Shown: positions 5,320 to 42,366 of the stretch, piece after piece
Position numbering within the stretch: the stretch's first letter is position 1
Layout of the letters: each line of letters begins with the position of its first letter
Origin: Promicromonospora kroppenstedtii DSM 19349
GTDB taxonomy: Bacteria; Actinomycetota; Actinomycetes; Actinomycetales; Cellulomonadaceae
NCBI RefSeq assembly: GCF_000515355.1
Contig: NZ_KI911577.1
Span: 35,244 to 82,247 of the forward strand
DNA length: 47,004 nucleotides
Reading direction: 5' to 3'
Program-made: the position numbers and the translations under genes
The notes under the pieces: model-generated
Database searches by the model: none
The model's input: only the letters and a program-made list of their open reading frames with translations
What the model was told of the DNA's origin: nothing

Positions 5320-7803
5320 TCAGAGCACGTCGTCGAGGCTCGGGCCCTTGGACGGTGCATCGGGGGTTACAGGGAGGGAATCGGCCCGCGGCGCCGTATC
5401 GGCTCGCTCTTCTTCGGGGTCAATTCCCTTGTCGGTCTGGCGCATGCGGCGGATGCCCTCGAACGCCATGCCCTGCTTCCCTCGGCGCTTCGGGTGGCCG
5501 CGCTCTTCCAGGGCCCGGAAGAACGTTTGCCGGGTCCAGACCTCGCGGGCGGGGAGGTTCTCCTCCGTGGCCCACGCGAGGTAGGCCTCGAAGAGGAGCT
5601 TCCCCTCGACGCGGCCGGCGCCGGAGTCGGCGACGTACACGCCGGGCAGGAAGCCCGCGAGAGCGTCGGACGTCTCGCGGTACTCGGACGTCGCGTTGCG
5701 CACGACGTCGGGCTCCTGGAGGCCGGACCGGAACCACTCGATCGAGCCGCGCACGGCCCACGCCAGGATGCCGGCGCGCTCCGCGAGGAGCTTCTCGCCG
5801 AGGCGGTGGTCGCGCTCCTCGGGGGCGAAGAACCGCTCCCAGGGGATGAGCTTCACGCGGCGCCAGAGGCCCTCGTCCTGCCCGCGAAACTCGGGCTTAA
5901 AGTTGGTCGCCAGCATGAGGAGGAACGTCGGGCGGAACTCGAAGAACTCCTTCCGCATGAAGCGCGCGGCGATCAGGTCCTTTCCGGTGACGCGCTTCAG
6001 CACGGCCTCTGCCATGCGCCGGCCCTGGTCGCCCTCGGACGCCATGACCAGGCGCGCACCCTTCAGCGCGGCGAGGTCGTTCGGGATGCCGCCCGAGGGC
6101 TTCTCCTCGAACGTGCTGAACGGCGTCGTCACGGTGTGCTCGCGGAAGACCTCCGTCAGCGTGTCCGTGAAGACGCTCTTCCCGTTGGCCCCCTTGCCCC
6201 AGAACACCGTGAAGGCCTGCTCGTCGGTGCGGCCGGTGATGCCGTAGCCGACGAGCCGGCGCATGAAGGCCGGCATGGCGGGGTAGGCCGGGAAGACCTC
6301 GTCGAGGAACGCCTCCCAGCGCGGGGCCCGTGCGTCGGGGTCGTAGTCGATCTCGACGCGCCGGGTCAGGAGGAGCGCGGGGTCGTGCGGGAGGAGCTCG
6401 CCCGTGCGGAGGTTCACCACTCCGTTCGCCACGGCGAGGAGGTCCGGGTGCGTGTCGAAGTCGTTGATGTCGACGGACACGCCCGGCAGGGCAGCGAGCT
6501 CCTTCAGCGCCGCGTCGATCCCGCGGGAGCTCTGCGAGTGCGCGGCCCAGCGGAGCCAGGCACGGACGTGCTTCGGCAGGGCGCCCGACTCCGTCGGCGT
6601 TGCCGCGGCGGCGAGGTCGTTCGCGATCTGGGCGATCCGGTCGGCCGCCTCCTGGACGAAGGCGCGCGTGCGGTCGAGCCGGTCGGACCTCCAGACACCA
6701 GCCTTGAGGAGGAAGAAACCAGCCTCAGGGCTGTACTTCACGCCGGAGCCCTGGGCCTCGACGTACGCCGCGACGAAGCGGGCGTTGCCGAGGTCCGTCA
6801 GCGGGTAGCGGTTCTCGTCCCGGCCCCGGAGGACGGCCGCCGAGGAGGTCTCCTCCGTGGTCTCCGAGATGGCACGGACGACGTTCGTCGCGAACCGCGC
6901 ACCGTCCCGCTCGCGCCAGTCAGTCAGGTCGAGGTCGTCCGGGACGGGCAGGATCTTCACGCGCACGCCGTGAGCGATCAGCCCTTGCGCGAGGTTGGCC
7001 GCGAAGGTCCGGCCGGCGGCGTCGCCATCGCCCGCGATGACGGCGAGCCGGTCGCCGATCATCTCGGCCACGGCCTCGACGGCGACGGGGTTCGTCGCGA
7101 GGCCGGCGCCCCGGATGCCGACCGTGTCGTAGCCCAGGGCGACGCCGGTCAGCGCATCCCCGGGACCTTCGCAGACGAGTACCTCGTCCCAATCCGAGGC
7201 GCCCTCGAACCAAGCGACCTTGGCCCAGCTCGCCCCCTCGGGGGACTTCGGGCCGAGCCACCGGACCTGGGCGTCCTTGGCAAGTGCCCGAGCCTGGTAG
7301 CCGCGCGGGACGCCGTCCTTGTCGTTGAACGGGACGACGAGGCGGGCCCCGCCCGGGAGGTCGTCGGCGTAGCCCAGGCCGAGGCGGTAGGCGTCGTCCT
7401 CGCCGATGCCGAAGCGACGGGTCGCATACCCCAGCGCCTCCAGTGCAGCCGCGCTGCCCTCCTCCGGGCCACGTCGGAGCATGGCCGACCAGTGGTCGAG
7501 GTCGACCGCCAGCCGCGCCACGTCCTCGACGCTCGCCGGGGCGTCGGTGCTCGTCGCCGGCGTGAAGTCGACGTCGCCGGGCTTCATCGTCGCGAGGTCG
7601 CGCATCGTCAGCCCGAGGGCCTCGACCACCTTCGGTGTCGGGCAGCCGGCGCGGCAGCGCACGAGGACCTTGCCCTTGTCGGCCACGGTCAGCCGGAGCG
7701 ACTGGCGGGAGTCGGAGTGCGCCGGGCAGTGGACGAGGACGCCGTCGTCGGTGTGCTCGACGTCGTCGAACTTGGAGATGAGGTCGGCGAGGGTCTTGGT
7801 CAC
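5320..7803 (-). CDS. DNA primase-helicase (Toprim plus D5/SF3 type)
   Basis: This 827-aa fusion has a zinc-binding N-terminus (Cys26, His29, Cys50, Cys54), a Toprim domain with CEGPGDAL near 211 and DGDAAG near 258, and a D5-type superfamily 3 helicase. The helicase has Walker A GKGANGKS near 536, then SEGDQG, a TNFKPEF sensor segment and a GLWRRVKLIPW arginine-finger region, and a C-terminal winged-helix-like part. It would prime and unwind phage DNA for the polymerase. The start is GTG at 7801-7803, overlapping the methyltransferase stop as GTGA. The longer upstream frame is a shadow of that gene. Confidence 0.92.
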   Translation of the reverse strand: MTKTLADLISKFDDVEHTDDGVLVHCPAHSDSRQSLRLTVADKGKVLVRCRAGCPTPKVVEALGLTMRDLATMKPGDVDFTPATSTDAPASVEDVARLAVDLDHWSAMLRRGPEEGSAAALEALGYATRRFGIGEDDAYRLGLGYADDLPGGARLVVPFNDKDGVPRGYQARALAKDAQVRWLGPKSPEGASWAKVAWFEGASDWDEVLVCEGPGDALTGVALGYDTVGIRGAGLATNPVAVEAVAEMIGDRLAVIAGDGDAAGRTFAANLAQGLIAHGVRVKILPVPDDLDLTDWRERDGARFATNVVRAISETTEETSSAAVLRGRDENRYPLTDLGNARFVAAYVEAQGSGVKYSPEAGFFLLKAGVWRSDRLDRTRAFVQEAADRIAQIANDLAAAATPTESGALPKHVRAWLRWAAHSQSSRGIDAALKELAALPGVSVDINDFDTHPDLLAVANGVVNLRTGELLPHDPALLLTRRVEIDYDPDARAPRWEAFLDEVFPAYPAMPAFMRRLVGYGITGRTDEQAFTVFWGKGANGKSVFTDTLTEVFREHTVTTPFSTFEEKPSGGIPNDLAALKGARLVMASEGDQGRRMAEAVLKRVTGKDLIAARFMRKEFFEFRPTFLLMLATNFKPEFRGQDEGLWRRVKLIPWERFFAPEERDHRLGEKLLAERAGILAWAVRGSIEWFRSGLQEPDVVRNATSEYRETSDALAGFLPGVYVADSGAGRVEGKLLFEAYLAWATEENLPAREVWTRQTFFRALEERGHPKRRGKQGMAFEGIRRMRQTDKGIDPEEERADTAPRADSLPVTPDAPSKGPSLDDVL
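5377..5405 (-). promoter_or_regulatory. Candidate phage promoter P6 (GAGCCG-N11-CGGGCCGATTCC)
   Basis: On the minus strand GAGCCG is followed after exactly 11 nt by CGGGCCGATTCC, the spacing shared by the other copies. It lies inside the 3' end of the primase gene, 73 nt upstream of the 5101-5304 start. Confidence 0.5.
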
Positions 7804-8546
7804 GCGGTCACCGCCTTCAGGAGTCGGGCACCGACGAACTCGGTGTAGGCAGGGGGGATTGCTTCGGCGAGGAGTACGCGGTCGTCGAGCCAGTCGATGC
7901 CCATAGCGGTCTGCCACTGCTCGACGCTGCCCTTGCCGCCACCGTTGCCGTAGACGGCGAAGTAAGGGCCCTCGTACCACTGGCCGTGCCGGTAGCCCGC
8001 GACACGGCCGCGGTGCGGGGCGTGCTCGGGCGCTTCGGTCGACCAGCGGCCAAGCTCGAAGTAGCGGTGCCGGATCACGCCGAGCCCGAACGTCTCGCCG
8101 CACAGGGTCAGATCCCGGCGCATGGTTGCGCCCTGGACGTTCTCGATCACGTACGGCAGGCCGACGGCGTCGAGGAGCTCGCGCGTCTCTGGGATCAGGT
8201 CGACGTGATCGTCCTTCCAGCCGCGGGCCCGGTTGCCCTTGGTGAGGGCGGTGTTCGCCTGGCACGGCGGCGAGGCGTGGATCGCCGCAAAGTCGGAGCG
8301 CCGGAGGAACTCGACGGGGCGGCCAGGCGCGTTGCGGTCCTCGAACCAGACGTGCTCGCCGCGATCGAGGCGGCGGAGGATGTCGAGCGCGCTGGTCGAG
8401 CGGACCGGGAACGGGTAGTGGTCCGCGCGGTCCTGGTCGAGCTCGACGCCGTAGACGTCGAACCCGGCTCGGTGGTAGCCCATCGCGGCGCCACCGCCGG
8501 CGCTGTAGAGGTCGAGGATCTTAGGTCGTGCGTCGGTGGCCGTCAC
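7800..8546 (-). CDS. C5-cytosine DNA methyltransferase
   Basis: This 248-aa protein has the ordered motifs of m5C methyltransferases: motif I DLYSAGGGAAMG near residues 12-23, motif IV SPPCQ near 95 with the catalytic cysteine, motif VI ENV near 135, a motif VIII-like RHRYFEL, and a C-terminal motif X-like segment. The target-recognition region is short, which fits phage orphan enzymes. It would methylate phage DNA against host restriction. No cognate endonuclease is recognisable; the nuclease encoded just upstream looks like a resolvase. The start is GTG at 8544-8546. P5 lies 42 nt upstream, and the stop overlaps the primase start. Confidence 0.9.
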   Translation of the reverse strand: MTATDARPKILDLYSAGGGAAMGYHRAGFDVYGVELDQDRADHYPFPVRSTSALDILRRLDRGEHVWFEDRNAPGRPVEFLRRSDFAAIHASPPCQANTALTKGNRARGWKDDHVDLIPETRELLDAVGLPYVIENVQGATMRRDLTLCGETFGLGVIRHRYFELGRWSTEAPEHAPHRGRVAGYRHGQWYEGPYFAVYGNGGGKGSVEQWQTAMGIDWLDDRVLLAEAIPPAYTEFVGARLLKAVTA

Positions 8547-8569
8547 GCGGCTACCTCCTTCAGGTCGGG

Positions 8570-8935
8570 TCAGTCGGTGTCGAGGACGGAATCGGCCTGA
8601 GGGGTCGTCACGGCTCGCACGAGTTGCGGGAAGTCGCCCAGGCGCATCACGACGTAGGCGTCCTCGATCGGCTTCCGCGGGCGCTTGACCACGGCGACGC
8701 CGAAGGGCATGCGGGCGTGGCCCTTCTGGACGCGCACGCCCTCGACGCCCTCGCGGATGCCGGTGAGGATGTCGCGGTAGTTCTTGGCCTGGAGGACAAA
8801 CGGCGGAGAGTGGATATCGCCGACGTCCTTGTGCCCCTCCTGGCGCGGGCGGTAGGCGAAGATGCCGGCCTCGACGAGGTAATCGCGGACCTGGCGCTCG
8901 AACAGGGAGCCCTTGCGGGCGTTGGGGTTGGTCAC
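8570..8935 (-). CDS. PD-(D/E)XK nuclease, Holliday-junction-resolvase-like
   Basis: This 121-aa protein has a glutamate in a FERQVRDYL helix, then DVGDI and LQAKN. That is the E...GD...(D/E/Q)xK order of Hjc/VRR-NUC-type nucleases. In phages these usually resolve or trim branched DNA during replication. It could instead be a restriction-like enzyme paired with the methyltransferase, but its size and motif argue for a resolvase. The start is GTG at 8933-8935, overlapping the upstream stop by four bases. Confidence 0.65.
   Translation of the reverse strand: MTNPNARKGSLFERQVRDYLVEAGIFAYRPRQEGHKDVGDIHSPPFVLQAKNYRDILTGIREGVEGVRVQKGHARMPFGVAVVKRPRKPIEDAYVVMRLGDFPQLVRAVTTPQADSVLDTD
8588..8616 (-). 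promoter_or_regulatory. Candidate phage promoter P5 (GAGCCG-N11-CAGGCCGATTCC)
   Basis: This motif sits inside the last codons of the nuclease gene, 42 nt before the methyltransferase start. Upstream it carries CGCAACTCGTGC, shared with P1 (CGCAACTCGTGT). The encoded residues (AVTTPQADS) show no reason for such conservation. Confidence 0.6.
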
Positions 8936-9225
8936 GTAGCCGCCCCGCACGACGGGCAGGGCTCGCTGAAGACGTCGCGGATGGAGCCCGAGGCGTCAGA
9001 CGGGAAGGCGACCCCGTGCGGGAGGCCGTCCGGGCACTTCACGGCGTCGATGAGCGCGCTGCCCTCGGCCTCGACGGCGCTGACGAGGGTCACGAACGGA
9101 TCCCACTCCTCGCCCTTGCCGAAGGCCGGCGCGAGCTCGGTCGAGAGCCACATCGCGAGCGGGTTCGACTCGGCGTCGAGGAGGCGGTTCTTGAACCGGC
9201 GCATCGCCGGCAGGTCGTGAGTCAT
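8932..9225 (-). CDS. Hypothetical protein, 97 aa
   Basis: I do not recognise this protein. It is largely helical and ends in CPSCGAAT, half of a zinc-binding pair. Its ATG (9223-9225) directly abuts the inverted repeat at 9226-9239, whose AAGGAG also serves as the ribosome site. It is the first gene of a unit running through nuclease, methyltransferase and primase. Confidence 0.65.
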   Translation of the reverse strand: MTHDLPAMRRFKNRLLDAESNPLAMWLSTELAPAFGKGEEWDPFVTLVSAVEAEGSALIDAVKCPDGLPHGVAFPSDASGSIRDVFSEPCPSCGAAT

Positions 9226-9239
9226 GCAAGGCTCCTTGC
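9226..9239. promoter_or_regulatory. Operator-like dyad containing the ribosome-binding site
   Basis: On the minus strand GCAAGG-AG-CCTTGC ends immediately before the ATG of the 8932-9225 gene. A bound repressor would block elongation. As RNA, the stem would pair part of the Shine-Dalgarno sequence. Confidence 0.5.
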
Positions 9240-9250
9240 GTGGATACGAC

Positions 9251-9290
9251 GAAGGCCCCCGGCGGTCCGGGTGGACTGACGGGGGCCTTC
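9251..9290 (-). terminator. Terminator after the RDF-like gene
   Basis: The perfect 10-bp arms GAAGGCCCCC and GGGGGCCTTC enclose a GC-rich loop about 30 nt past the stop of the 9322-10035 gene. A TTCGTCG tail follows on the minus strand. Confidence 0.8.
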
Positions 9291-9321
9291 GAGGGGCGGT
9301 GCCGCTAGGCGGCGGGGTGGA

Positions 9322-10035
9322 TCAGGCCTTGCCGTGGAGGGTCAGCGTCGGCTTGGTGTAGCGGACCGTCTCGCCGGCGCGTTCGCCGTTCTTCGCGACG
9401 AAGGAGACCTCCTCCAGGGCGAGCGTGGCGCGCACCTTGGAGCCGTCCTCGCTCAGGTCGGCGAGCTCCTCCTCGACCTCGTGGTAGGAGAGGTCCGAGA
9501 CCAGCGACCAGGAGCCCGACTGGAACTTGAAGATCCCGAGGTCGGGCTCGTCCGCCAGGCGGAACCAGAGCTGAATGCGCGGCTCGGCGCCGACGCCCTT
9601 CTTCGCCTCAGCCTTGCGCTCCTTGAAGGACTGACCGGCCTGCGGGTCGGGCTGGCCCTTGTCCTCGTCCGGGTAGGTGATCGTCTCGCCGTCGGAGACG
9701 CGGATGATCCCCTTCCGGCCGTAGAGAACCATGTCCTGACGGAGGGCCTTGGAGCCGTCGAGGATGATCTCGACCTCGGTCGCCTCGGTGAAGACCTCCA
9801 GGCCGTCCTCGCCCTTGGTCTCCCACTCCTCGACGCCCTTCGGGGCGCCCAGCAGGGCGACGAGCTTGTCGGCGACCTCGGGGTCCCCGGTCGTGACGCG
9901 CCAGTCGCTCAGCGCGACTGGGCGGTCGTTCTCGACGTAGCCGGAGCGGAAGCGGCCGACGACGTCGTCCGAGAAGCTCGACTTCTTCTTGGGGGCGTTC
10001 TCGCCGGTCTCGTCGCCGAAGATCTTCAGTGCCAT
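9322..10035 (-). CDS. phiC31 gp3-like recombination directionality factor
   Basis: This 237-aa protein resembles the phiC31/phiBT1 gp3 family, whose founding members switch their serine integrases from integration to excision. Recognisable segments are DDVVGRFRSGY, ALSDWRVTTGDPEVAD, SDGETITYP, LADEPDLGIFKFQSGSW and LALEEVSFVAKNG. phiC31 gp3 is 244 aa, so the length fits. The gene lies in the replication module, far from integrase, as in phiC31. P1 is 65 nt upstream and a terminator follows, making it a single-gene unit. The family call rests on remembered sequence pattern and was not checked by search. Many homologues are annotated only as hypothetical. Confidence 0.72.
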   Translation of the reverse strand: MALKIFGDETGENAPKKKSSFSDDVVGRFRSGYVENDRPVALSDWRVTTGDPEVADKLVALLGAPKGVEEWETKGEDGLEVFTEATEVEIILDGSKALRQDMVLYGRKGIIRVSDGETITYPDEDKGQPDPQAGQSFKERKAEAKKGVGAEPRIQLWFRLADEPDLGIFKFQSGSWSLVSDLSYHEVEEELADLSEDGSKVRATLALEEVSFVAKNGERAGETVRYTKPTLTLHGKA

Positions 10036-10099
10036 GTGGGTTCTCGTCCTTCTGTGGAAGGTGGGCGCGGCGCCTGTTGGCTTGCGCGGTGTCGGAGTA

Positions 10100-10128
10100 G
10101 GAATCGGCCTGGGGGCCGGGTGCGGCTC
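10100..10128 (-). promoter_or_regulatory. Candidate phage promoter P1 (GAGCCG-N11-CAGGCCGATTCC)
   Basis: On the minus strand this copy is preceded by CGCAACTCGTGT and lies between the stop of the 10162-10539 gene and the RDF-like start. Its 29 bases are identical to P2. Confidence 0.65.
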
Positions 10129-10138
10129 ACACGAGTTG

Positions 10139-10154
10139 CGGGAGGGCCCTTGCG
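10139..10154. promoter_or_regulatory. Imperfect operator-like dyad
   Basis: On the minus strand CGCAAGG-GC-CCTCCCG follows the stop of the 10162-10539 gene by a few bases and precedes P1. One arm matches the operator family exactly; the other is degenerate. Confidence 0.35.
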
Positions 10155-10161
10155 TGGTGGG

Positions 10162-10539
10162 TCAGGCCGGCATGGGCGTGGCCGGGGGCCGCGAGATCTT
10201 CGGGCCCGGGGCGCCGGAAGCGTCCGTGGCGAGCCGCGCCCAGCCGAGGACCGTGGCGATCTTGGCGGAGCGACGGGCGCCCATGTGCTGGAGCACTGCC
10301 TCCATGACCGCTACGGCCTTCGTCCCGGATACCTCCGCGTGGAACATGGCCGCGTTGGGGTACGGCTTCAGCGACAGCCGGACCTGGGCGCCCATGAGGG
10401 TGGCGGCGCGACCGACGACGTCGCGGTCGGACATGCCGACGCGGACGCGCGGGTACTTCTTGCGGTGGAGGTCGAAAGTCCCCTCCCCTTCGAGGAGGCC
10501 GGCAAGCCAGATGGCGTCTTCGCGGGAGATCTCAGGCAC
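10162..10539 (-). CDS. LAGLIDADG-like protein, single motif, 125 aa
   Basis: The N-terminus has WLAGLLEGEGTFDLH, a good match to the first helix of LAGLIDADG homing endonucleases, where the acidic residue at its end binds metal. Only one motif is present and the protein is short, so it would act as a dimer or may be a domesticated DNA-binding protein. A later segment (VGRAATLMGAQV) resembles the family's following strand and helix. It is free-standing, between the Cas4-like and RDF genes. The start is at 10537-10539, overlapping the upstream gene by 8 nt. Confidence 0.6.
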   Translation of the reverse strand: MPEISREDAIWLAGLLEGEGTFDLHRKKYPRVRVGMSDRDVVGRAATLMGAQVRLSLKPYPNAAMFHAEVSGTKAVAVMEAVLQHMGARRSAKIATVLGWARLATDASGAPGPKISRPPATPMPA

Positions 10540-10747
10540 GGTTGGCCTCCTTGTTGATCTGCCGCACCTCGGCGGCCTTTTCGGTGAGCAGTGCGGCGAA
10601 GTTGTCGGCCTCGTCGGGCGAGAGGAAGAGGTCGAGGTCGTCAGCGTCCGGCACGAAGAACGCGACGCGGACGTCCTCCCCGGGCCACGGGAGGAAGTCC
10701 CGCTCTACCTGGACTGCCTCACCAGATCGGAAGGTGAGGTCGCTCAT
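10532..10747 (-). CDS. Hypothetical protein, 71 aa
   Basis: The ATG at 10745-10747 overlaps the Cas4-like stop as ATGA. The product has a beta-rich first half (FVPDADDLDLF) and a helical C-terminus. No family is recognised. Coupling to the Cas4-like gene suggests a shared recombination or replication role. Confidence 0.6.
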   Translation of the reverse strand: MSDLTFRSGEAVQVERDFLPWPGEDVRVAFFVPDADDLDLFLSPDEADNFAALLTEKAAEVRQINKEANRA

Positions 10748-11565
10748 CGGCGACCACCCCGGCGGCCGGTCTCCTCGACGATCGACTCGATCGCGACGCC
10801 GTTGCCGAGGACACTCTTCGACGTCTCCCGGTCCCACTCCCAGATCTGCCGGAGTGCGAGGAAGATCTCGAAGAGGCTGTCGTCGATCCGCGCAGGGACC
10901 ACCTGACCGCCCTCGGGGCGGGCGTGCACGACGATGCCCGCGTCGAGGTGCGGGATGTCGGCCTTCGTGCCGTCCGGGAGGATGATGTAGTCGGCGTTCT
11001 TGTACGCCGTCTCCTGGAGCGCGACCTCGGCGTGCACGCCGGAGCGCGTTGTTTTCCAGTCACCGATGGTGGTCATCCGCTCGCCCGTGTCGGGGTCGGT
11101 GACCTTCGCGATGAAGTCGAAACTGCCGGCGTAGCCGTGGGTCTCGGACCAGACGGTCTCCTCCAGGAAGAGGAACTCCGGCTCGAACTGCTTCTCGAAG
11201 CCCTTGAAGATGCCGACGTAGGGCTTCAGCTCCTCGCGGACGCGTCCGACCTCCTCGCCGCGCGCGAGGCGCTCGAACAGGTCGTGCACCTCCGTGCCGG
11301 CCTCGGCCGCCTGGGCGGTGTCGCGGTCCGGCGCCCGCTTCAGCAGGTCGACGGCGGCGCTCTTGTCGTTCATGGCGAGCGTGACGACGGCGCCGATGTT
11401 GTTCACGGCGTACTCGGCGACGCTCTTCGAGGCCCAGAACTTCAGGAAGCCCTTGGGCAGCATGTTGAGGACGCTCGTCACGCCGGGCACCTTCCGAGCG
11501 CTCTCGGGGTGCACGTAGAGGCGGCTGCCGCCGCGCTTGATCGTGTTGATCTTCGGGTTCGTCAC
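10744..11565 (-). CDS. Cas4-family/RecB-like PD-(D/E)XK exonuclease
   Basis: This 273-aa protein carries a RecB-type nuclease core: a histidine/glutamate helix (HDLFERLA near 90), GSFDF with the metal-binding aspartate near 150, and GDWKTT near 168 with the D-x-K pair, followed by LQETAYKN, the QxxxY-like helix. This matches the Cas4/PDDEXK_1 exonucleases common in actinophage replication modules, where they process ends for recombination. I see no four-cysteine iron-sulfur cluster typical of CRISPR Cas4. The start is GTG at 11563-11565. P2 lies 38 nt upstream. Confidence 0.85.
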   Translation of the reverse strand: MTNPKINTIKRGGSRLYVHPESARKVPGVTSVLNMLPKGFLKFWASKSVAEYAVNNIGAVVTLAMNDKSAAVDLLKRAPDRDTAQAAEAGTEVHDLFERLARGEEVGRVREELKPYVGIFKGFEKQFEPEFLFLEETVWSETHGYAGSFDFIAKVTDPDTGERMTTIGDWKTTRSGVHAEVALQETAYKNADYIILPDGTKADIPHLDAGIVVHARPEGGQVVPARIDDSLFEIFLALRQIWEWDRETSKSVLGNGVAIESIVEETGRRGGRR

Positions 11566-11602
11566 TAGGTGACTCCCTCTCTCGTTCGGTGGGGACGAGA
11601 GA

Positions 11603-11631
11603 GGAATCGGCCTGGGGGCCGGGTGCGGCTC
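11603..11631 (-). promoter_or_regulatory. Candidate phage promoter P2 (GAGCCG-N11-CAGGCCGATTCC)
   Basis: The motif is identical to P1 over 29 bases. It lies between the 104-bp dyad element and the Cas4-like gene, 38 nt from its start. Confidence 0.7.
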
Positions 11632-11655
11632 ACCTTGCAGGCAAAACAGTTCGAT

Positions 11656-11759
11656 GGTGTAGAAGGTGTAGAAGTTGTAGGTCTCCCTAGTTACCTCTCA
11701 AGAAAACAAAACCTTGAAGGGTAATAAGAGAGACCTACAACTTCTACACCTTCTACACC
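11656..11759. repeat. 104-bp dyad element, copy A (30-bp perfect arms)
   Basis: The arms at 11656-11685 and 11730-11759 are perfect inverted complements. Each arm contains two tandem GTGTAGAAG units and a third variant, TTGTAGGTC. The 44-bp core is AT-rich for this genome and holds an imperfect inner dyad (TTACC..TCAAG / CTTGA..GGTAA). It follows the candidate repressor gene and precedes P2. Copies B and C lie at 44494-44597 and 45351-45454. Confidence 0.9.
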
Positions 11760-11789
11760 CCTCGGGGGCGTGGAGGTGCTCCTCCGGCG

Positions 11790-12410
11790 CTAGTCCGTGG
11801 CGCTGAAGAGCGGGGCGCCGCCCTCCTCGGCGACGGGCCGGACGGCCACGCGCTTGGACAGGCGGCGCGCGGTGCTCTCCAGGTCTTCGAGCGTGGCCTT
11901 CGCGACCTCCGCGGCGTGCGGGTCGAGGCGTGTCAGCTCGGCCCCGTCGACCTTCGCTAGCACGGTCGCTGCCGCGGTGATCGCCATCAGCGAGCCGCCG
12001 GCGACGTCGCGGGACGTGAGGGCGCGCACGACGGCGCGGTCTTGCTTGCGGTGCTCCTGGTTCGCCTCGGACTGCGTCTGAGGCTTCAGCCCGTGGTCCG
12101 CCAAGGTCTCCTTGTCGACGGACTCGCGCATGATCTCGCTCAGGTGCCAACTCACCGACGAGCGGATCGAGTTCCGGCGCTCGGCCGGGACGCCCGCCTC
12201 CGCGTAGACCTCGCCGACCCAGCGCCGGTAGGGGTGCGTGCGTCCGGCGTAGTCGGGCTCGCCGTCCCCGCGCAAGAAGTGTTGCCGGGCCTCGAACAGG
12301 ACCTCGGCGAACGCGCGCACGTGCGGCGTTCGCTCCTCGACGGGGGCCGCGAGGTAGCGGCGCATGTGCTCTACCGCTTGGCGCTGTAGGGGCGCGAGAC
12401 TCGGTTCCAT
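11790..12410 (-). CDS. Candidate DNA-binding regulator / immunity repressor, 206 aa
   Basis: I do not recognise a named family. The protein is helical and basic: residues ~60-105 (RRWVGEVYAEAGVPAERRN then SSVSWHLSEIM) could form a helix-turn-helix, and the C-terminal half is alanine-rich helix suited to oligomerisation. The context makes it a repressor candidate. Its promoter (12417-12445) contains the phage-wide operator dyad, and the -10 box is six bases from the ATG, predicting a leaderless transcript as in several phage repressor genes. It is closed off by the 104-bp dyad. This function is inference. Confidence 0.55.
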   Translation of the reverse strand: MEPSLAPLQRQAVEHMRRYLAAPVEERTPHVRAFAEVLFEARQHFLRGDGEPDYAGRTHPYRRWVGEVYAEAGVPAERRNSIRSSVSWHLSEIMRESVDKETLADHGLKPQTQSEANQEHRKQDRAVVRALTSRDVAGGSLMAITAAATVLAKVDGAELTRLDPHAAEVAKATLEDLESTARRLSKRVAVRPVAEEGGAPLFSATD

Positions 12411-12416
12411 ACCTAC

Positions 12417-12445
12417 ACGGTAGCCCACGCAAGGGGCCTTGCCCA
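12417..12445 (-). promoter_or_regulatory. Operator-bearing promoter of the candidate repressor
   Basis: On the minus strand TGGGCA (12440-12445), 17 nt and TACCGT (12417-12422) align with the other operator promoters. GCAAGG-GG-CCTTGC at 12429-12442 lies in the spacer. The ATG at 12408-12410 begins six bases past the -10 box and has no Shine-Dalgarno sequence. Confidence 0.5.
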
Positions 12446-12481
12446 GCGGGCGTGCCCCAAATCACCCCGAAACGACAGAAA

Positions 12482-12510
12482 GCCCCGGCCCTCACGAGGA
12501 GGGCCGGGGC
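12482..12510 (-). terminator. Terminator after dNMP kinase
   Basis: Arms GCCCCGGCCCTC and its near-complement enclose ACGA. On the minus strand the tail is TTTCTGTCGTTT. It insulates the candidate repressor promoter from upstream transcription. Confidence 0.85.
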
Positions 12511-12517
12511 CGGAGTA

Positions 12518-13096
12518 TCAGAAGCGGAGGTCTCGGGCAAGCGCGACAAGCTCGTCGGCCGTGCCGGAGTTTCGGATGGTGAAATCGGTGGGGTAGTCGG
12601 CGAGCTCAGTCTCAGACGGGTGGGTGTCCGTTGAGACTAAGTCCGGGCGGACGATGCGGACGAGGATGCCGCCGTCACGTTGGATCGCGTCGGCCTCGTT
12701 CTTGTAGCGGACGTCCGTGATGACGACGCCGGGAGCGCCTTCCATGAGCGCACCCGTCGCCTCCGCGAGGCCGGCATTCAACCAGAAGCCCGGGCCGCGA
12801 CGGCGCACGGCCTGCCCGCTCTGCTGGAGGAGGCGCCGGGCCTCGGGGCCGTAGGGCGTGTCCTTCAGGCCCTCCCAGCCGCCGTAGATCTGGAGAGCCT
12901 GCAAGAGCCGGATGGTCGGCTCGGGCTGCCAGGGCGGCGTGATGAGCCACGGGTCGATCTCCTCGACCATCTCGCGGAGCGGGTCGGCGAACGCGACGCG
13001 GGTGTAGCCCCGCTCGACCAGGCCGGCCGCGAAGGTGTCTTTGCCGGACCTCTTCACGCCGACCAGGCCGATCAGGGGGTGCGGGATGTCGGTCAC
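12518..13096 (-). CDS. Deoxynucleoside monophosphate kinase
   Basis: This 192-aa P-loop kinase has GVKRSGKDT at residues ~13-21, FADPLREM shortly after, a G-x-R-x-x-LQ-like middle (RRLLQQSG) and VITDVRYKNEADAI, all typical of the phage dNMP kinase family. It would phosphorylate dNMPs from degraded host DNA to feed replication. The start is GTG at 13094-13096, overlapping the upstream stop by four bases. Confidence 0.85.
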   Translation of the reverse strand: MTDIPHPLIGLVGVKRSGKDTFAAGLVERGYTRVAFADPLREMVEEIDPWLITPPWQPEPTIRLLQALQIYGGWEGLKDTPYGPEARRLLQQSGQAVRRRGPGFWLNAGLAEATGALMEGAPGVVITDVRYKNEADAIQRDGGILVRIVRPDLVSTDTHPSETELADYPTDFTIRNSGTADELVALARDLRF

Positions 13097-13347
13097 TCGA
13101 CCACCTCCCAATTGTCGGCGCGCTCGACGCGGCCGGAGACGGGCTCGTTGCGGTACGCGCCGCCCCACGTCGCCCGATCCCGCGCACCGTTCAGGTGCGA
13201 CGTGATGACGGCCTTCGCGGTGCGCTTCCGGTCCCAGGGGCCGAAGCGTCGCTCCTTGCCGTCGGCGTAGACGAGGACGGCCGAGAAGACGGCGTCGCGC
13301 TCGGCGTCGTCCTTGTAGCCCTCCCAGGCGGCGCCTACCTGCCTCAC
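13093..13347 (-). CDS. Hypothetical protein, 84 aa
   Basis: No family is recognised. The protein has an acidic N-terminal helix, a short beta hairpin (FSAVLVYADGKERRFG) and a basic middle. It begins at GTG 13345-13347, overlapping the previous gene by four bases, and ends overlapping the kinase start. Confidence 0.6.
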   Translation of the reverse strand: MRQVGAAWEGYKDDAERDAVFSAVLVYADGKERRFGPWDRKRTAKAVITSHLNGARDRATWGGAYRNEPVSGRVERADNWEVVE

Positions 13348-13511
13348 TCACCCACCGCCGCGAACTCGACGAGCGTCTTGTCGGTGGTCTCGTCGTACTC
13401 GGCCATGACCGGGCGCACGAGCCCGTGACGGGGCGAGTCGTAGAGCATCGGGTCGGCGTTGCGGACGTCGCCGGGGTAGTGCAGGCGGCCGACGATCTCG
13501 GTCTCTTCCAT
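13344..13511 (-). CDS. Small hypothetical protein, 55 aa
   Basis: The ATG at 13509-13511 opens a 55-codon frame with overlap on its downstream side (GTGA). GGAGGACTGACC lies upstream. The product is acidic, with a YDETTDKT segment. No family is recognised. Confidence 0.55.
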   Translation of the reverse strand: MEETEIVGRLHYPGDVRNADPMLYDSPRHGLVRPVMAEYDETTDKTLVEFAAVGE

Positions 13512-13513
13512 GG

Positions 13514-13687
13514 TCAGTCCTCCCGGTTCCCGCGCACGAAGGCGGCCTTGCGGGTGAGGCGTGTCGCCTCGTTCCGGAGGTGGTTCGCCCGCTTGGGGTC
13601 CTTGGCGTGCTTCGCCTGCGTAGCGAGCTCCTCGGCCTTCTTGTGGAGCTGGTCGATGGCCTTGTCGGGGCGGTCGAAGAAGCCCAT
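13514..13687 (-). CDS. Small basic helical protein, 57 aa
   Basis: A lysine- and arginine-rich helix runs through nearly the whole protein (DKAIDQLHKKAEELATQAKH), suggesting a coiled coil or nucleic-acid binding. The ATG is at 13685-13687, just after the stop of the 13690-13806 gene. Function unknown. Confidence 0.6.
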   Translation of the reverse strand: MGFFDRPDKAIDQLHKKAEELATQAKHAKDPKRANHLRNEATRLTRKAAFVRGNRED

Positions 13688-13689
13688 GG

Positions 13690-13806
13690 TCAGCGGCCCC
13701 CGATCATCGTCACGGTGCCGTCGGCGTGCGTGATGCTGTAGCCGGTCGGCGTGGTGCGGACGACGACGGGCTTGTCGTCCTTGTCCAAGTAGGTTCCAGG
13801 GCGCAT
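13690..13806 (-). CDS. Very small hypothetical protein, 38 aa
   Basis: The ATG at 13804-13806 has GAAGGAGG seven bases upstream and the stop is two bases before the next start. The product is a beta-rich peptide ending in VTMIGGR. It is the first gene below P3, 40 nt from the motif. Confidence 0.55.
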   Translation of the reverse strand: MRPGTYLDKDDKPVVVRTTPTGYSITHADGTVTMIGGR

Positions 13807-13845
13807 GGCGGCCTCCTTCGTGCGGTCTGTACTGCCTGACGAGGA

Positions 13846-13875
13846 GGTAATCGGCCTGGGCCACCGGAGCGGCTC
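13846..13875 (-). promoter_or_regulatory. Candidate phage promoter P3 (GAGCCG-N11-CAGGCCGATTACC)
   Basis: The motif lies directly after the terminator at 13892-13922 and 40 nt before a gene with a strong ribosome site, the arrangement expected of a promoter opening the nucleotide-metabolism operon. Confidence 0.65.
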
Positions 13876-13891
13876 ACCCCAAAATGCGAAA

Positions 13892-13922
13892 AGCCCCCGC
13901 CCTCGCGAGGAGGACGGGGGCT
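13892..13922 (-). terminator. Terminator after the lysis membrane gene
   Basis: Arms AGCCCCCGTCCTC-like and complement enclose a GCGA loop; the minus-strand tail is TTTTCGCATTTT. It ends the late transcript that carries the tail and lysis genes. Confidence 0.85.
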
Positions 13923-13929
13923 AGAGGCG

Positions 13930-14112
13930 TCAGTCGCCGGACGGGAGGCCCGACTTGGGCGGCGTGGCGGCGAACCCGCCGGCGGCGAGGAAGGCCAGCG
14001 AGACGGCGACGATGTCCTCAGCGGACAGGCCATCGCCGACCAGCGGCCCGGTCACGGCCAGGGCGCCGGCCAGGCCAGCGAGGAGGGCGTTCACGATGCG
14101 GTTCTTGAACAT
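13930..14112 (-). CDS. Small membrane protein, putative holin
   Basis: This 60-aa protein has two hydrophobic helices, ~7-24 and ~33-50, separated by an acidic turn, and a short polar tail. It sits last in the lysis cassette after endolysin and the 14123-14368 protein. The ATG at 14110-14112 gives the compact class II-like holin shape. A holin would permeabilise the inner membrane to release endolysin. Holins are too diverse for a sequence-only family call. Confidence 0.6.
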   Translation of the reverse strand: MFKNRIVNALLAGLAGALAVTGPLVGDGLSAEDIVAVSLAFLAAGGFAATPPKSGLPSGD

Positions 14113-14122
14113 GGATCTCCGA

Positions 14123-14368
14123 TCAGGGGGTGAGGTTGATGCTCTGGAGCAGGAGCACGAGCCCGCCGAGGACACCGACGCCGCCGCCAACGGCGGACAG
14201 GAGGCCCATCGGCGAGACGGTCTTGCGGTCCTCGACGATGCGGAGGCGGGCCTCGTGGTCGTCGAGTTTCGTGCCGTGCTGCCCGAGGACGAGGTCGAGC
14301 TTCGTCTCCATCCGGGCCAGAGCGACCCGGGTGTCGACGTTCTCGTCGTCAGGCGAGGCCGGGGTCAT
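14123..14368 (-). CDS. Membrane-anchored coiled-coil protein, holin-associated
   Basis: This 81-aa protein has a heptad-rich helix at ~12-48 and one C-terminal transmembrane segment at ~57-77 (LLSAVGGGVGVLGGLVLLL). This resembles XhlA-type lysis proteins. It overlaps the endolysin stop as ATGA and precedes the two-helix membrane protein, so it is probably part of the lysis machinery. Confidence 0.6.
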   Translation of the reverse strand: MTPASPDDENVDTRVALARMETKLDLVLGQHGTKLDDHEARLRIVEDRKTVSPMGLLSAVGGGVGVLGGLVLLLQSINLTP

Positions 14369-15033
14369 GCGGCCTTGACGGCGCGGGCGATGGCGGACTT
14401 CGTCCACTTGCCCACGACGCCGTTACGCAGGAAGTAGCCGCGGGCACGCTGGAAGCGGCGGACGAGGGCGTAGGTGCCCATGCCGAAGTCACCGTCGTCC
14501 GCGATCTCGATCCCGCGCTTCGCGTAGATCTTGTTCAGGTCGCGCTGGAGCTGCCGCACCTCGGGGCCGGACGAGCCCAGGCCGAGCGACCGGCCGCGGG
14601 GGCGGTTGATCGTGTGGCGCACGCGGGCACGGCCCGAGCGCTCCCAGTGCCACGCCTCCTCGCGGCCGCCACCCTGGCGGGCCCAGTAGGGGTGCTGCCA
14701 GCCGTACCGGCCGGCGTTCGCCCGCATCCACTCGTGCTCCGTGGAGCCGAAGCGGTTGATGTTCGAGGCGAAGTCCACGGCGAGGCCCCAGCCGTGGTTG
14801 GACGTGCCGGGGACGGCGGCCAGGCCGGGGCCCTTGCCGACGGGCGGCGGCTGGTAGAGCCGCTGCTGCGACGCGAGGGTCCGGTAGGTGTCGGTGGCGC
14901 GGAGCGACCGGTAGAACTTGCTGGCGAACGCCAGGGCGAGGCTGTCGGCGTCGCGCGCGGCGGACTTGGTCAGCCGGCCGCCGATGACGGTCTCGCGGAG
15001 GGAGCTGTCGGGGAGCATGCCGTTGAGTGCCAT
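14365..15033 (-). CDS. Endolysin: M15/VanY-type peptidase with peptidoglycan-binding domain
   Basis: This 222-aa protein has an N-terminal D,D-peptidase-like domain with zinc-site residues in SNHGWGLAVDF (~78-88) and WHWE (~128). A PG_binding_1 domain follows at ~145-222 (LGLGSSGPEVRQLQRDL ... DFGMGTYALVRRFQ). It would cut peptide stems of the host wall at the end of infection. No signal peptide is evident, so export depends on the adjacent holin-like proteins. A strong terminator (15067-15097) lies between tail genes and this gene. Confidence 0.88.
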   Translation of the reverse strand: MALNGMLPDSSLRETVIGGRLTKSAARDADSLALAFASKFYRSLRATDTYRTLASQQRLYQPPPVGKGPGLAAVPGTSNHGWGLAVDFASNINRFGSTEHEWMRANAGRYGWQHPYWARQGGGREEAWHWERSGRARVRHTINRPRGRSLGLGSSGPEVRQLQRDLNKIYAKRGIEIADDGDFGMGTYALVRRFQRARGYFLRNGVVGKWTKSAIARAVKAA

Positions 15034-26638: not shown

Positions 26639-26658
26639 CGCGCAAGGGGCCTTGCGCG
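26639..26658. promoter_or_regulatory. Operator-family dyad after the major tail gene
   Basis: CGCGCAAGG-GG-CCTTGCGCG is a perfect inverted repeat starting a few bases past the stop. On the minus strand it shares TGACCTGTCGCGCAAGG with the site at 30081-30098. No promoter is evident, so it may act as a roadblock (stoperator-like). Confidence 0.55.
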
Positions 26659-36288: not shown

Positions 36289-36296
36289 GGTGCCTC

Positions 36297-39493: not shown

Positions 39494-39894
39494 GTCGTTG
39501 CCTCCTTCTCGCGCGTGGCCAGCTCGAACCGCAGGTTCCGCAACGCGCTCTCGATGGCCTCGTCGGTCGCGAGGGTGTAGAAGTCGCCGAGCACCTTCAC
39601 GGGCTCGGGGGCCAGGGCCTTCGGGAGGCCGTCGAACCACTCCGCCTCGGCGTCGACCGCGGCGGCCTGAGCCTCGGAGTAGATGGGCTCGTCCTCGACG
39701 GGTTCGAGGTCCTCCTCGGCCACGTGGTGGTAGAGCGGCTGGGGCACGAGCTTGTTCGGATGCTTGCCGTAGACGTACCAGACGCCGGACGTGGCCCGGC
39801 TCCGGAGGGTCACGACCACCCCGGGGGAGAAGGGGTGTCGCGGGTTCGAGTTGCCGACGATGCGCGCCTTACCGTTGGCGCGGAGCTCGCTCAT
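39490..39894 (-). CDS. Hypothetical protein, 134 aa
   Basis: The N-terminal ~50 residues look like a small beta barrel (GVVVTLRSRATSGVWYVYG). The rest is acidic and helical (AQAAAVDAEAEWF; DEAIESALRNLRFEL). The ATG is at 39892-39894, overlapping the upstream stop. No family is recognised. Confidence 0.6.
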   Translation of the reverse strand: MSELRANGKARIVGNSNPRHPFSPGVVVTLRSRATSGVWYVYGKHPNKLVPQPLYHHVAEEDLEPVEDEPIYSEAQAAAVDAEAEWFDGLPKALAPEPVKVLGDFYTLATDEAIESALRNLRFELATREKEATT

Positions 39895-40388: not shown

Positions 40389-40498
40389 GGGCGGCCTCCT
40401 TGGATGACGGCGCGGACGATGGGGGCGACGACGTGCGTCGCGACGAGGGCCCAGGTGAGGGCCGAGGCGAACCAGGCGGCGAGGTCTCGGGCGGTCAT
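40385..40498 (-). CDS. Very small membrane protein, 37 aa
   Basis: The ATG at 40496-40498 gives a peptide that is nearly all one transmembrane helix (LAAWFASALTWALVATHVVA). It overlaps both neighbours by four bases. Confidence 0.55.
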   Translation of the reverse strand: MTARDLAAWFASALTWALVATHVVAPIVRAVIQGGRP

Positions 40499-41022
40499 GA
40501 GCGGCCCTTCAGCGCGTCGCGTAGCGGGACGAGGTCGGGCGTCGCGTGCTTGGCGCACACGGGGTACGGCGGAGCACCGCCCTCCCACTTGTCCTCACGG
40601 AAGGCAACAGCCGGACCGTTGCACGGGCGCGAGGCGTCCTCGTCCCAGCGCTGCACTTCCTCGTAGCACTCGGCAGGCTGCGCGGCCTCATGCCGGCGTG
40701 CCAGAGCCTCCAGGTCCTCGCGGAGGTTCGCGTTCTCGGCCTCGGCGCGCTGCCGGGCGTGGACCTCGTCGTTCCACCGGGCTTGCCAGTCGCCGGCGGC
40801 GGCCAGGTTGGCTGACGCCTGCTCGTGAGCCTCGGCGAGTTCGGCCTCGGCCCGCGCGAGGCGCTCCTCCGCGACTCGGAATCGGTCCTCCGCCACGCGG
40901 GCGGCGGTCCGGTACTCGCCGACGTAGCGCTCGTTGCGCTCTACGGCGGCTGTGACGATGTCGGCCCCGTAGGCGTCCGGGTTGATGACGCGGAGGAGGC
41001 CCTCCATCAAGGCGCTAGCCAT
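40495..41022 (-). CDS. Coiled-coil protein with C-terminal Cys/His residues, 175 aa
   Basis: Residues ~25-115 are a long heptad-rich coiled coil (FRVAEERLARAEAELAEAHE). The C-terminal part holds CYEEVQRW, RPCNGP and YPVCAKHATP, which may bind zinc. The ATG is at 41020-41022. It could bridge a nucleic acid and a protein, but no family is recognised. Confidence 0.62.
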   Translation of the reverse strand: MASALMEGLLRVINPDAYGADIVTAAVERNERYVGEYRTAARVAEDRFRVAEERLARAEAELAEAHEQASANLAAAGDWQARWNDEVHARQRAEAENANLREDLEALARRHEAAQPAECYEEVQRWDEDASRPCNGPAVAFREDKWEGGAPPYPVCAKHATPDLVPLRDALKGRS

Positions 41023-41335
41023 GGTTCGGCTCCTCTGCGGTCGGGTACTCGTCGAGCTGGGCCACGAACTTGGCGACCTCGGCCTCGATCGGGTCGACCG
41101 GGGCGGCGGGCGTCTCGGGCTCGGCCGGCGGCGGCGGGACGATCGAGCCGTGCGCGCGCTCGTCCGCGGCCACGGCGGCGGTGATCGCGAGCTGAAGGCG
41201 CGGGAAGGTGCCGGGCGGGTACGCCGTCACGAGGGCGACGGCCTCGGCGACGATGACCTCCATCGCCGGGTTCAGGGACTCGTGGCGCTTGCCGCACCCC
41301 GGGCAGACCGGGTGGCGGTGGAAGGGGTTGCGCAT
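41015..41335 (-). CDS. Hypothetical protein, 106 aa
   Basis: The N-terminus has HPVCPGCGKRH, one zinc-binding pair plus histidines, followed by a helical body (VIVAEAVALVTAYP; LQLAITAAVAADERAH) and a proline-rich segment. The ATG is at 41333-41335, one base before the preceding stop. Confidence 0.6.
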   Translation of the reverse strand: MRNPFHRHPVCPGCGKRHESLNPAMEVIVAEAVALVTAYPPGTFPRLQLAITAAVAADERAHGSIVPPPPAEPETPAAPVDPIEAEVAKFVAQLDEYPTAEEPNHG

Positions 41336-41336
41336 G

Positions 41337-41558
41337 TTAGGCCCTCCTCCGGTCGACGCTGTAGCGGCGGTGAAGGCGGATCATCTTGCGGGCACGGCGC
41401 GCGGCGGGGCCGTAGCCATAGATCCCGGAGTAGTGGCCCTCGCCGATCGGGCGCCCGAGGTAGTAGGGCACCACCTTGGCGAAGCGCCCTCCGGCATCTC
41501 CCGTGCCGTCGATGGTTCGGATCTCGTAGCCGGCGGGCGGGGTGTACTTGCCGAACAT
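41337..41558 (-). CDS. Hypothetical protein, 73 aa
   Basis: The ATG at 41556-41558 is followed by a glycine/tyrosine-rich segment (GEGHYSGIYGYGPAARRARKM) and a basic tail. It starts just after the RNA ligase stop and is probably co-transcribed. No family is recognised. Confidence 0.6.
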   Translation of the reverse strand: MFGKYTPPAGYEIRTIDGTGDAGGRFAKVVPYYLGRPIGEGHYSGIYGYGPAARRARKMIRLHRRYSVDRRRA

Positions 41559-41560
41559 GG

Positions 41561-42115
41561 TCAGGCTCCCTTCGGCTGGTCGTCGTTCTCGATCAGGACC
41601 TTGAAGACCTGGCGGGCGGCGGCGTGGTAGACGACGACGCCCTCGGGGGTGGCGAAGCCGCGCTCGGCGGCGGAGCCCTTCTCGACGAGCTCGTCGAGGA
41701 CGTCGGCGACGATGTCCGTCGCGAACGGGCCCTGGTAGAGCACAGGCACCGTGTGCAGGAGGCCGTCGGACTCCTCCGCGAGGGCGCCGTAGCGGCCCAC
41801 GTTGAACAGCGAGAAGCGGCGCTCGTCGAGGCCGTAGCCCCGCTGGATGCCCTTGCCCCACCACTCACCGAAGTGGCGGCCAGGGCCGAGGAGCGGGAGG
41901 AGGGAGTCCTCGTGCTCGGCCACCCAGGCGGCGAAACCGAAGTTGTCGGTCGACTTGCCCGGCGTGCTGAGGCGGGTACGCGACTGGGCGGCGACCTGGC
42001 CGTCCTCGGTCACGATCACGGCGGCGTTCGTGCCGTCGATCTTCTCCGTGATGATGCAGTCGCGGAACAGGCGGGGCGTCTTGGGCCAGCCCTCGAAGGT
42101 GATCGGGGCGCTCAT
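41561..42115 (-). CDS. RNA ligase (minimal nucleotidyltransferase)
   Basis: This 184-aa protein has TEKIDGTNA with the presumed adenylated Lys25 (motif I), RFSLFNV (motif IIIa-like), PEGVVVYH (motif IV) and VFKVLIEN (motif V), in the order of ATP-dependent Rnl2-type RNA ligases. It ends soon after motif V, so a separate C-terminal domain is lacking. In phages such enzymes repair tRNAs cut by host defence nucleases; no kinase-phosphatase partner is visible. The ATG is at 42113-42115. It is second in the unit behind P4. Confidence 0.78.
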   Translation of the reverse strand: MSAPITFEGWPKTPRLFRDCIITEKIDGTNAAVIVTEDGQVAAQSRTRLSTPGKSTDNFGFAAWVAEHEDSLLPLLGPGRHFGEWWGKGIQRGYGLDERRFSLFNVGRYGALAEESDGLLHTVPVLYQGPFATDIVADVLDELVEKGSAAERGFATPEGVVVYHAAARQVFKVLIENDDQPKGA

Positions 42116-42297
42116 CGGTTGCCCCGGCGGGCGACGCGGGCGGCCTTGTTGGCGGCGCGACGGCGGGCCTTCACGTGGGCCGGGACGGTGCCCTCGTACA
42201 TCGGCCGGTCTCGGAGCGCCAACAGGATGGCGAGCTGCGTCCGCTTCAGCGGCGAGAGCGGCGGGAAGAGAACGTTAGCGAGCGGCGTCGGGTTCAC
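42112..42297 (-). CDS. Small basic hypothetical protein, 61 aa
   Basis: The GTG at 42295-42297 follows GAGGGAG by seven bases. The C-terminal third is very basic (HVKARRRAANKAARVARRG), so nucleic-acid binding is likely. The stop overlaps the RNA ligase start. P4 is 40 nt upstream. Confidence 0.6.
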   Translation of the reverse strand: MNPTPLANVLFPPLSPLKRTQLAILLALRDRPMYEGTVPAHVKARRRAANKAARVARRGNR

Positions 42298-42336
42298 GGT
42301 GGGGCTCCCTCGTCTGGGGTTTCGTTCTGACGAGGA

Positions 42337-42366
42337 GGTAATCGGCCCGGGGAGGCGCGGCGGCTC
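42337..42366 (-). promoter_or_regulatory. Candidate phage promoter P4 (GAGCCG-N11-CGGGCCGATTACC)
   Basis: The motif sits directly after a terminator and 40 nt before the first gene of the 42.3-35.9 kb array. AACTCGTGT precedes it, as in P1. It could drive the entire array. Confidence 0.68.

Follow-up and report, generated by a model that had tools for sequence, protein, structure and literature searches.

A predicted phage sigma factor and its dispersed promoters appear to have switched recognition sequence together among temperate actinobacteriophages

Phage-encoded sigma proteins, such as gp28 and gp33/34 of SPO1 and gp55 of T4, are well-known agents of temporal switching in phage gene expression. 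Here we describe a two-part DNA motif that is repeated in a 47,004-nucleotide (nt) stretch of the Promicromonospora kroppenstedtii DSM 19349 draft assembly (contig NZ_KI911577.1, positions 35,244 to 82,247; hereafter the window), together with a sigma-like protein, P0001, encoded in the same stretch. The window corresponds to one unit of a phage of 46.6 kb, the first 366 bases of the window recurring at its end. Temporal switching by a phage sigma protein would be common to SPO1, T4, and this phage; to our knowledge, no allele series with matching promoter sets has been found for the SPO1 and T4 proteins. The RNA polymerases of T7, T3, and K11 illustrate how related phages can come to differ in just a few bases that a small portion of the enzyme reads, although these are single-subunit polymerases with few specificities, whereas here we are dealing with a putative sigma factor and at least 15 promoter triplets. 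Orthogonal pairs of ECF sigma factors and promoters are likewise sigma families with mutually distinct promoters, but these are bacterial factors and not phage alleles at one locus.

The closest described systems are gp36 of phiEco32 and gp47 of phage 7-11, phage sigma factors with promoters of their own (accessible text of PMC8948821). P0001 would resemble them as a sigma70-family phage protein guiding the host core RNA polymerase to dispersed phage promoters. The same text gives the 7-11 promoters a bipartite consensus with 16-nt spacing and describes the two sigma factors as about 15% identical, held to be independently acquired, and serving promoters of middle and late genes. The present case differs in that one orthologous sigma factor occurs as many alleles with differing -10 triplets, and in that the promoters lie at replication and small-gene modules and not at the structural genes tested. 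Many dispersed cis sites that vary with one trans factor among related temperate phages are also a feature of the Cluster A mycobacteriophage repressor and its stoperators. Those sites serve repressor-mediated superinfection immunity (accessible text of PMC6550527), whereas here the factor would be positive and the sites have promoter geometry; site orientation and linkage to gene starts also speak against stoperators. Microbacterium phages of clusters EC and EI, which bear sigma factors, carry repeated, uniformly oriented, start-linked intergenic motifs of a function left open (PMC7302621). These differ in sequence from the promoter described here, and the accessible text of that paper describes no such repeat for cluster EH or Zeta1847, where this promoter occurs. 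The words promoter, motif, and sigma are absent from the main text of the cluster AZ paper (PMC8758107) and likewise from PMC11895437, and we found no report of the motif in the literature searched, whose coverage did not extend to subscription papers and preprints. Promoters of phage sigma factors are already known as a kind; what is new is the allele-like switching.

The six sites in the window are very probably promoters for host core RNA polymerase carrying P0001, a role that a preliminary description of this DNA had proposed for them and for the sigma-like protein at 1385-2248. Comparison with relatives supports the promoter family, its start geometry, its synteny, and its co-switching with the sigma factor. 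The motif GAGCCG-N11-CRGGCCGATT occurs in six exact minus-strand copies, each a short way 5' of a gene and each at the position first reported for it. The exact motif has no plus-strand match in the window and, as a check on chance recurrence, none in 100 dinucleotide shuffles. With up to three mismatches, the window holds nine matches against 2.9 expected, close to the largest shuffle value of 8, so only the exact six are clean. The hexamer, TGAGCC at four sites and CGAGCC at two, always lies 14 nt before GGC. The sites, with their predicted transcription starts (+1), are:

Positions 42340 to 42367, minus strand: promoter 1 (TGAGCC at 42367-42362, GGC-CGA-TT at 42347-42340); predicted +1 at 42331, leader 34 nt; before the small-gene module (GTG 42297).
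Positions 13849 to 13876, minus strand: promoter 2; predicted +1 at 13840, leader 34 nt; before a 31-codon open reading frame (ORF; ATG 13806) heading the deoxynucleoside monophosphate (dNMP) kinase operon.
Positions 11605 to 11632, minus strand: promoter 3; predicted +1 at 11596, leader 31 nt; before an exonuclease gene (GTG 11565).
Positions 10102 to 10129, minus strand: promoter 4; predicted +1 at 10093, leader 58 nt; before a homologue of recombination directionality factors (RDF; ATG 10035).
Positions 8590 to 8617, minus strand: promoter 5; predicted +1 at 8581, leader 35 nt; within the 3' end of the preceding ORF, before a DNA methyltransferase gene (GTG 8546) and primase.
Positions 5379 to 5406, minus strand: promoter 6; predicted +1 at 5370, leader 66 nt; within the 3' end of the primase gene, before a 67-aa ORF (ATG 5304) and DNA polymerase I.

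The distances to start codons given in the preliminary description agreed on re-measurement, and the two sites it had placed inside the 3' end of a preceding gene are those at 5379 and 8590. Its other observations on the sites hold in part. ACTCGTG, said to lie just upstream of several, is present at three (8590, 10102, and 42340) and absent at the other three. Three sites were said to follow directly on a terminator or dyad; dyads do precede some when judged by eye, among them a terminator-like one 5' of promoter 2, whereas a terminator scan of positions 1-15000 lists none directly before 13849. The GAGCCG box is exact in all six copies but is only the local form of a wider element.

That wider element, TG(A/G)G(C/T)(A/C), then 13 or 14 nt, then GGC-NNN-(C/T)T, is found in temperate phages of Arthrobacter, Curtobacterium, and Microbacterium that have a sigma factor homologous to P0001. 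Homologues of P0001 are encoded in 203 phage records (E up to 0.01), and our comparison set of ten whole and 18 partial genomes of sigma-bearing relatives makes 29 phages with the window. Nearly all of them carry the element, with differing NNN, ahead of their orthologues of four genes, those for dNMP kinase, exonuclease, RDF, and primase. When the triplet was left free and the 220 nt preceding each orthologous start (dNMP kinase, exonuclease, RDF, or primase/methylase) were searched, the element turned up at 107 of 113 starts, and at 104 of these the triplet was the phage's own modal one; 30 of 2000 random stretches of the structural arm matched. NNN takes 15 values in 38 of the 50 loci examined: CGA in the window and Sooty, GCA in KeAlii and Floof, GTC in Zeta1847, CCT in DrManhattan, GGC in Cen1621, TCC in Lizalica, ACC in Elezi, CGT in BaileyBlu, GCT in Emotion, and in others also AAC, CCC, CCA, GGT, TCT, and CAT. 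The preliminary description covered a single phage, so this variation was not visible to it. The triplets of several short loci are based on two sites; TCT in L109, L111, and L118 was read by eye after the pattern had missed it, and Caron (L102), with a tie between GGT and GCT, was assigned GGT by hand. The other 12 loci (L039, L040, L043, L044, L045, L046, L048, L049, L051, L054, L055, and L096), being short, duplicate, or lacking a modal triplet, were given none. For some of these, region 2.4 of the sigma factor led to a non-blind prediction of GGT (L039 and L054) or CGA (L043-L045), and sites were found, most with C instead of T at the first -35 base and along with a few wrong-triplet matches. 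The exact pattern of the window also had single matches in 17 IMG/VR contigs, none with two or more, which we took as chance.

The variable triplet bears on whether the sites might instead be promoters that a FliA/WhiG-type alternative sigma factor of the host recognises. The FliA/WhiG (sigma28) consensus has TAAA at -35 and GCCGATAA at -10, which the window's -10 sequence, GGCCGATT, resembles, and P0001 itself has a weak NCBIfam FliA_WhiG match (E 7e-4, far under the cut-off). A FliA-like -10 was our first idea, drawn from GGCCGATT, and was dropped because relatives carry other triplets: 14 others replace it in their syntenic promoters. The triplet also differs along with the phage sigma factor between near-identical phages, for example Phives and Janeemi, for each of which A. 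globiformis B-2979 is the listed host, and the -35 element, TGAGC/TGGGC, is unlike TAAA. Across the whole 5.8-Mb assembly the motif has 15 matches (reversed control, 0) on contigs C14, C15, C19, C21, and C28. All are phage copies, the hit-bearing stretches of C19, C21, and C28 being phage too, and the host part is without the exact motif. A host factor of this type is highly improbable.

Counting a site when its predicted +1 lies no more than 200 nt upstream of a gene start, we find one before the exonuclease in 27 of 29 phages (leaders 27-36 nt), before the RDF in 28 of 29, before primase or methylase in 28 of 29 (leaders 21-39 nt), and before the dNMP-kinase operon in 23 of 26, where the window is represented by the small ORF heading that operon. 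GardenState contributes to the RDF count only because we moved its RDF start inward by 216 nt; it counts as a miss when the annotation is followed. No site lies upstream of the sigma gene or directly before polymerase I in any of the 29 phages, nor before the terminase, capsid, or tape-measure genes (0 of 10 each). Ten genomes hold 75 sites on the coding strand, none of them in the structural arm, and three on the opposite strand. In the window and nine of ten named genomes (the exception being Zeta1847; site positions were compared with annotated gene ends), a promoter lies 35-65 nt before the end of the primase gene, which accounts for the site noted earlier inside that gene. The sites were first suggested to open the replication and small-gene modules, and their synteny before replication genes and absence before the late genes tested agree with this.

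Start geometry points the same way. Among 165 strict sites, with gaps of 11-15 nt allowed, the hexamer-to-GGC gap is 13 or 14 nt in 164. At offset 9 past the motif a purine stands in 90% of sites (G 72%, A 18%), and C, despite the C-rich surroundings, never occurs there; a pyrimidine precedes this position in 84%. The six window sites share the same gap, and each has G at offset 9. If offset 9 is +1, the hexamer spans -36 to -31, moving one base closer to the start when the gap is 13 nt, and the triplet spans -13 to -11. This agrees with an ordinary sigma70-type layout, in which -35 and -10 elements stand about 17 bp apart and a purine start follows 6-9 nt downstream; the +1 here is predicted. 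The sites do not match start-associated sequences (SAS/ESAS), which sit at the ribosome-binding site, whereas the window motif ends well 5' of the start codon (leaders 31-66 nt). At 12 sites, ten of them in Cen1621, Zeta1847, and Honk, an ATG falls exactly at offset 9, leaving no room for a leader; some of these promoters in the Microbacterium phages Zeta1847, Cen1621, and Honk (L028, L030, and L106) thus appear to yield leaderless mRNAs.

We give very little credence to the idea that the motif acts at the RNA level, through pairing of CCTCC with the Shine-Dalgarno sequence in a hairpin of the 5' leader, so that translation and not transcription is controlled. By eye, CTCCTC after the motif can pair with a downstream Shine-Dalgarno sequence at several sites, for example at 11605. 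We rejected such a hairpin on two grounds: most of the CCTCC stretch would precede the predicted 5' end of the transcript, and in the leaderless relatives there is nothing that could fold.

The candidate reader of the promoters is encoded near one end of the window:

Positions 1385 to 2248, minus strand: putative phage sigma factor P0001 (287 aa) with sigma2, sigma3-like, and sigma4 domains; region 2.4 helix at about residues 112-128, recognition helix at about 261-279.

P0001 matches PHROG 351 (RNA polymerase sigma factor) at E 3e-15, and of 17 homologues scanned, eight match Sigma70_r4 and seven r2 at E 1e-3. In a Foldseek search with its AlphaFold model (predicted local distance difference test score, pLDDT, 77.6; predicted template modeling score, pTM, 0.45), all of the matches listed were sigma chains of RNA polymerase complexes. 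The model superposes on region 2 of RpoS with Z 13.0 over 96 residues (root-mean-square deviation, rmsd, 2.3), and on full-length sigma factors with Z of about 12 and a large rmsd from domain placement, a Z of a size not rare for helical proteins. ECF sigma factors are characterised by an absent sigma3 domain, whereas the model has confident helices at 137-178 between sigma2 and sigma4. As modelled, the fold of P0001 is that of a sigma70-family protein with sigma2, sigma3, and sigma4.

If such a sigma factor reads the triplet, region 2.4 is expected to vary with it. We compared the two in 35 of the 38 triplet loci, leaving out three more than 90% identical to another. In a sliding test with overall relatedness removed, the correlation with triplet distance peaks at residues 117-128 of sigma, which lie in the region 2.4 helix (partial r 0.40; 35 sigmas). 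In the 27-28 phages that allow controls, the same residues reach 0.39, against maxima of 0.18 each for exonuclease, RDF, and polymerase. Position 121, which presumably neighbours the sigma70 residues known for reading -12, shows a simple correspondence: the middle base of the triplet is G in eight of eight cases with Arg121 and in four of 21 without it, and on independent branches five to six changes agree and none disagrees.

Near-identical phages give the sharpest view of this correspondence. Mapped on a tree of the DNA polymerases of the 29 phages, the 14 triplet states require 19 changes, a number reached or undercut in 2 of 200 shuffles, whose mean was 21.9. Fourteen Arthrobacter phages form 33 pairs with polymerases at least 93% identical, and exonuclease and RDF are 86-100% identical across all of these. 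The triplet differs in 30 pairs, where region 2.4 identity is 9-48% and the rest of the sigma factor averages 59%; in the three pairs with the same triplet, region 2.4 is 82-100% identical and the rest averages 89%. Phives (AAC) and Janeemi (CGA) have sigma factors 58% identical, whereas their polymerases, exonucleases, and RDFs are 98-100% identical. At the primase 3' end of these two phages (L108 and L115), the flanks are nearly identical and the -35 is the same in both, while about 25 bp around the -10 differ, a difference inside the gene that alters the primase C-terminal peptide. The sigma factor and its promoters thus appear to have changed recognition code together many times in close relatives, and this allele-like series of sigma specificities with matching promoter sets would be the larger and new part of our finding.

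These pairs also bear on whether the motif might be the binding site of another phage regulator (an activator, repressor, or antiterminator) overlapping ordinary host promoters. Start-linked repeats of unassigned function do occur in other actinobacteriophages (accessible text of PMC7302621), and this phage also has a palindromic operator-like element. Such a site would have to be squared with the mostly one-strand orientation, the fixed distance to a purine start, and the leaderless ATGs. Of four proteins followed over the 33 pairs (sigma, exonuclease, RDF, and polymerase), only sigma follows the triplet, and among 20 genes of Phives and Janeemi just one 58-residue ORF (54% identical) is more diverged than sigma. 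We consider another regulator quite unlikely. Three other differing pairs leave room for a small one, as several further small genes are absent or have diverged as far as sigma.

Besides those three pairs, several results weigh against P0001 as the reader of these promoters. P0001 falls just below the Pfam cut-offs, with 23.8 bits for Sigma70_r4 (cut-off 24.1) and 17.5 for r2 (24.0). The signal at residues 117-128 was reached in 0 of 2000 permutations, run on top windows only and uncorrected for the scan. Primase windows are high for the triplet too, at 0.38 in the C-terminal tail, where a promoter is coded, and 0.31 outside the last 60 columns, and other sigma windows are raised (residues 55-66 at 0.35 in 27-28 phages; 87-104 at 0.25-0.28 in 35 sigmas). 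Single-column mutual information is scattered, with residues 111-132 holding six of the top 24 columns, and nearest-neighbour prediction of the triplet gains modestly from region 2.4 over the rest of sigma (seven against three exact of 35 at the strictest cut). Arg121 was chosen after looking, with p 0.03-0.06 from independent pairs. The triplet is not wholly uniform within a phage, as three of the 107 matched starts carry another (two in Sooty, one in Caron). The motif was not found with two distant sigma homologues of about 30% identity, in Dismas (whole genome) and CliffHanger (15.0-41.2 kb only). We also withdrew a link between -35 distance and region 4.2 (r 0.44 in the sliding test), because control windows were higher (primase 0.49, polymerase 0.47); this nonspecific signal is not claimed.

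The genes downstream of promoters 3 to 6 are:

Positions 10744 to 11565, minus strand: exonuclease (PHROG 298), target of promoter 3.
Positions 9322 to 10035, minus strand: RDF homologue (PHROG 9220), named from the annotation of relatives at the same place; target of promoter 4.
Positions 7800 to 8546, minus strand: DNA methyltransferase (PHROG 363), target of promoter 5.
Positions 5320 to 8265 (start uncertain), minus strand: DNA primase (PHROG 6088), downstream of promoter 5; its 3' end holds promoter 6.
Positions 3191 to 5026, minus strand: DNA polymerase I (PHROG 17), downstream of promoter 6.

The sigma gene itself lacks the motif and is preceded by a different element:

Positions 2320 to 2335, no strand assigned: palindrome CGCAAG-N4-CTTGCG, 5' of the sigma gene.

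The palindrome has five matches in the window (also 662-677, 26641-26656, 44468-44483, and 45325-45340) and none in 100 shuffles, and is likely an operator of early promoters. By eye, TTGCG/CTTACG-like stretches precede sigma in several of 15 relatives. A scan of window positions 1-15000 for ordinary sigma70 promoters returned none. In Dismas and CliffHanger (L119 and L120), host-like TAGAAT/TACAAT boxes lie closely before several ATGs, again by eye. A genome from the same family as the host (G593) also encodes a sigma homologue, and the 20 kb of it that were examined (L096) showed no motif.

In a close nucleotide search of the window, the best phage records match replication genes only, and positions 25001-47004 had no phage match. 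C15 and the remainder of contig C14 are made up of fragments of this phage, and those longer than 300 nt show 97.9-100% identity. Outside the window, C14, C15, C19, C21, and C28 are a patchwork of same-phage fragments, with about 100 nt between pieces, as from noisy reads of abundant phage DNA, and phage DNA inflates the size of this genome assembly. A tandem duplication with an 857-nt period at 44071-45817 is probably real and no artefact, as another phage copy in the assembly (L098) aligns across both units. An inverted-repeat element of about 110 nt (GGTGTAGAAGGTGTAGAAGTTGTAGG...) occurs at 11652-11760, 44487-44604, and 45344-45461, the first copy adjoining the exonuclease promoter on its upstream side.

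From these comparisons we infer binding by P0001, a temporal order, and orthogonality between alleles. Sigma domain 4 would hold the TGAGCC hexamer at -36 to -31, the region 2.4 helix would read the triplet at -13 to -11 within GGC-NNN-(C/T)T, and transcription would begin on the purine 9 nt past the motif. The sigma gene would be expressed first, from a different promoter with the palindrome and no motif. P0001 would then turn on the dNMP-kinase operon, exonuclease, RDF, methylase/primase, polymerase, and the small-gene block, in effect a middle phase, and this promoter set would couple excision, through the RDF, with replication. Since triplet and region 2.4 change together in relatives, a given sigma allele would act mainly on the promoters that go with it. 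A broader proposal, whose chances we judge to be even, is that near-identical temperate phages carry many highly divergent sigma alleles at one locus, each with its own -10 triplet; that the six to ten dispersed promoters, one of them in the primase gene, co-switch with the allele under selection for orthogonality between co-infecting or resident relatives; and that parts of a simple code, such as Arg121 with a middle G, have arisen more than once. That avoidance of cross-talk with relatives is the cause of the switching is a guess.

This natural series would comprise at least 15 sigma/promoter specificities within one phage family, including near-isogenic pairs. Laboratory hosts would allow a direct test of how a trans factor changes together with its dispersed sites and of whether this is driven by incompatibility between relatives. 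The comparison also provides a rule by which middle promoters and transcription starts can be predicted for the dozens of phages in this group whose genomes are sequenced, and it would give a function to proteins that the listed phage records mostly name just 'DNA binding protein'.

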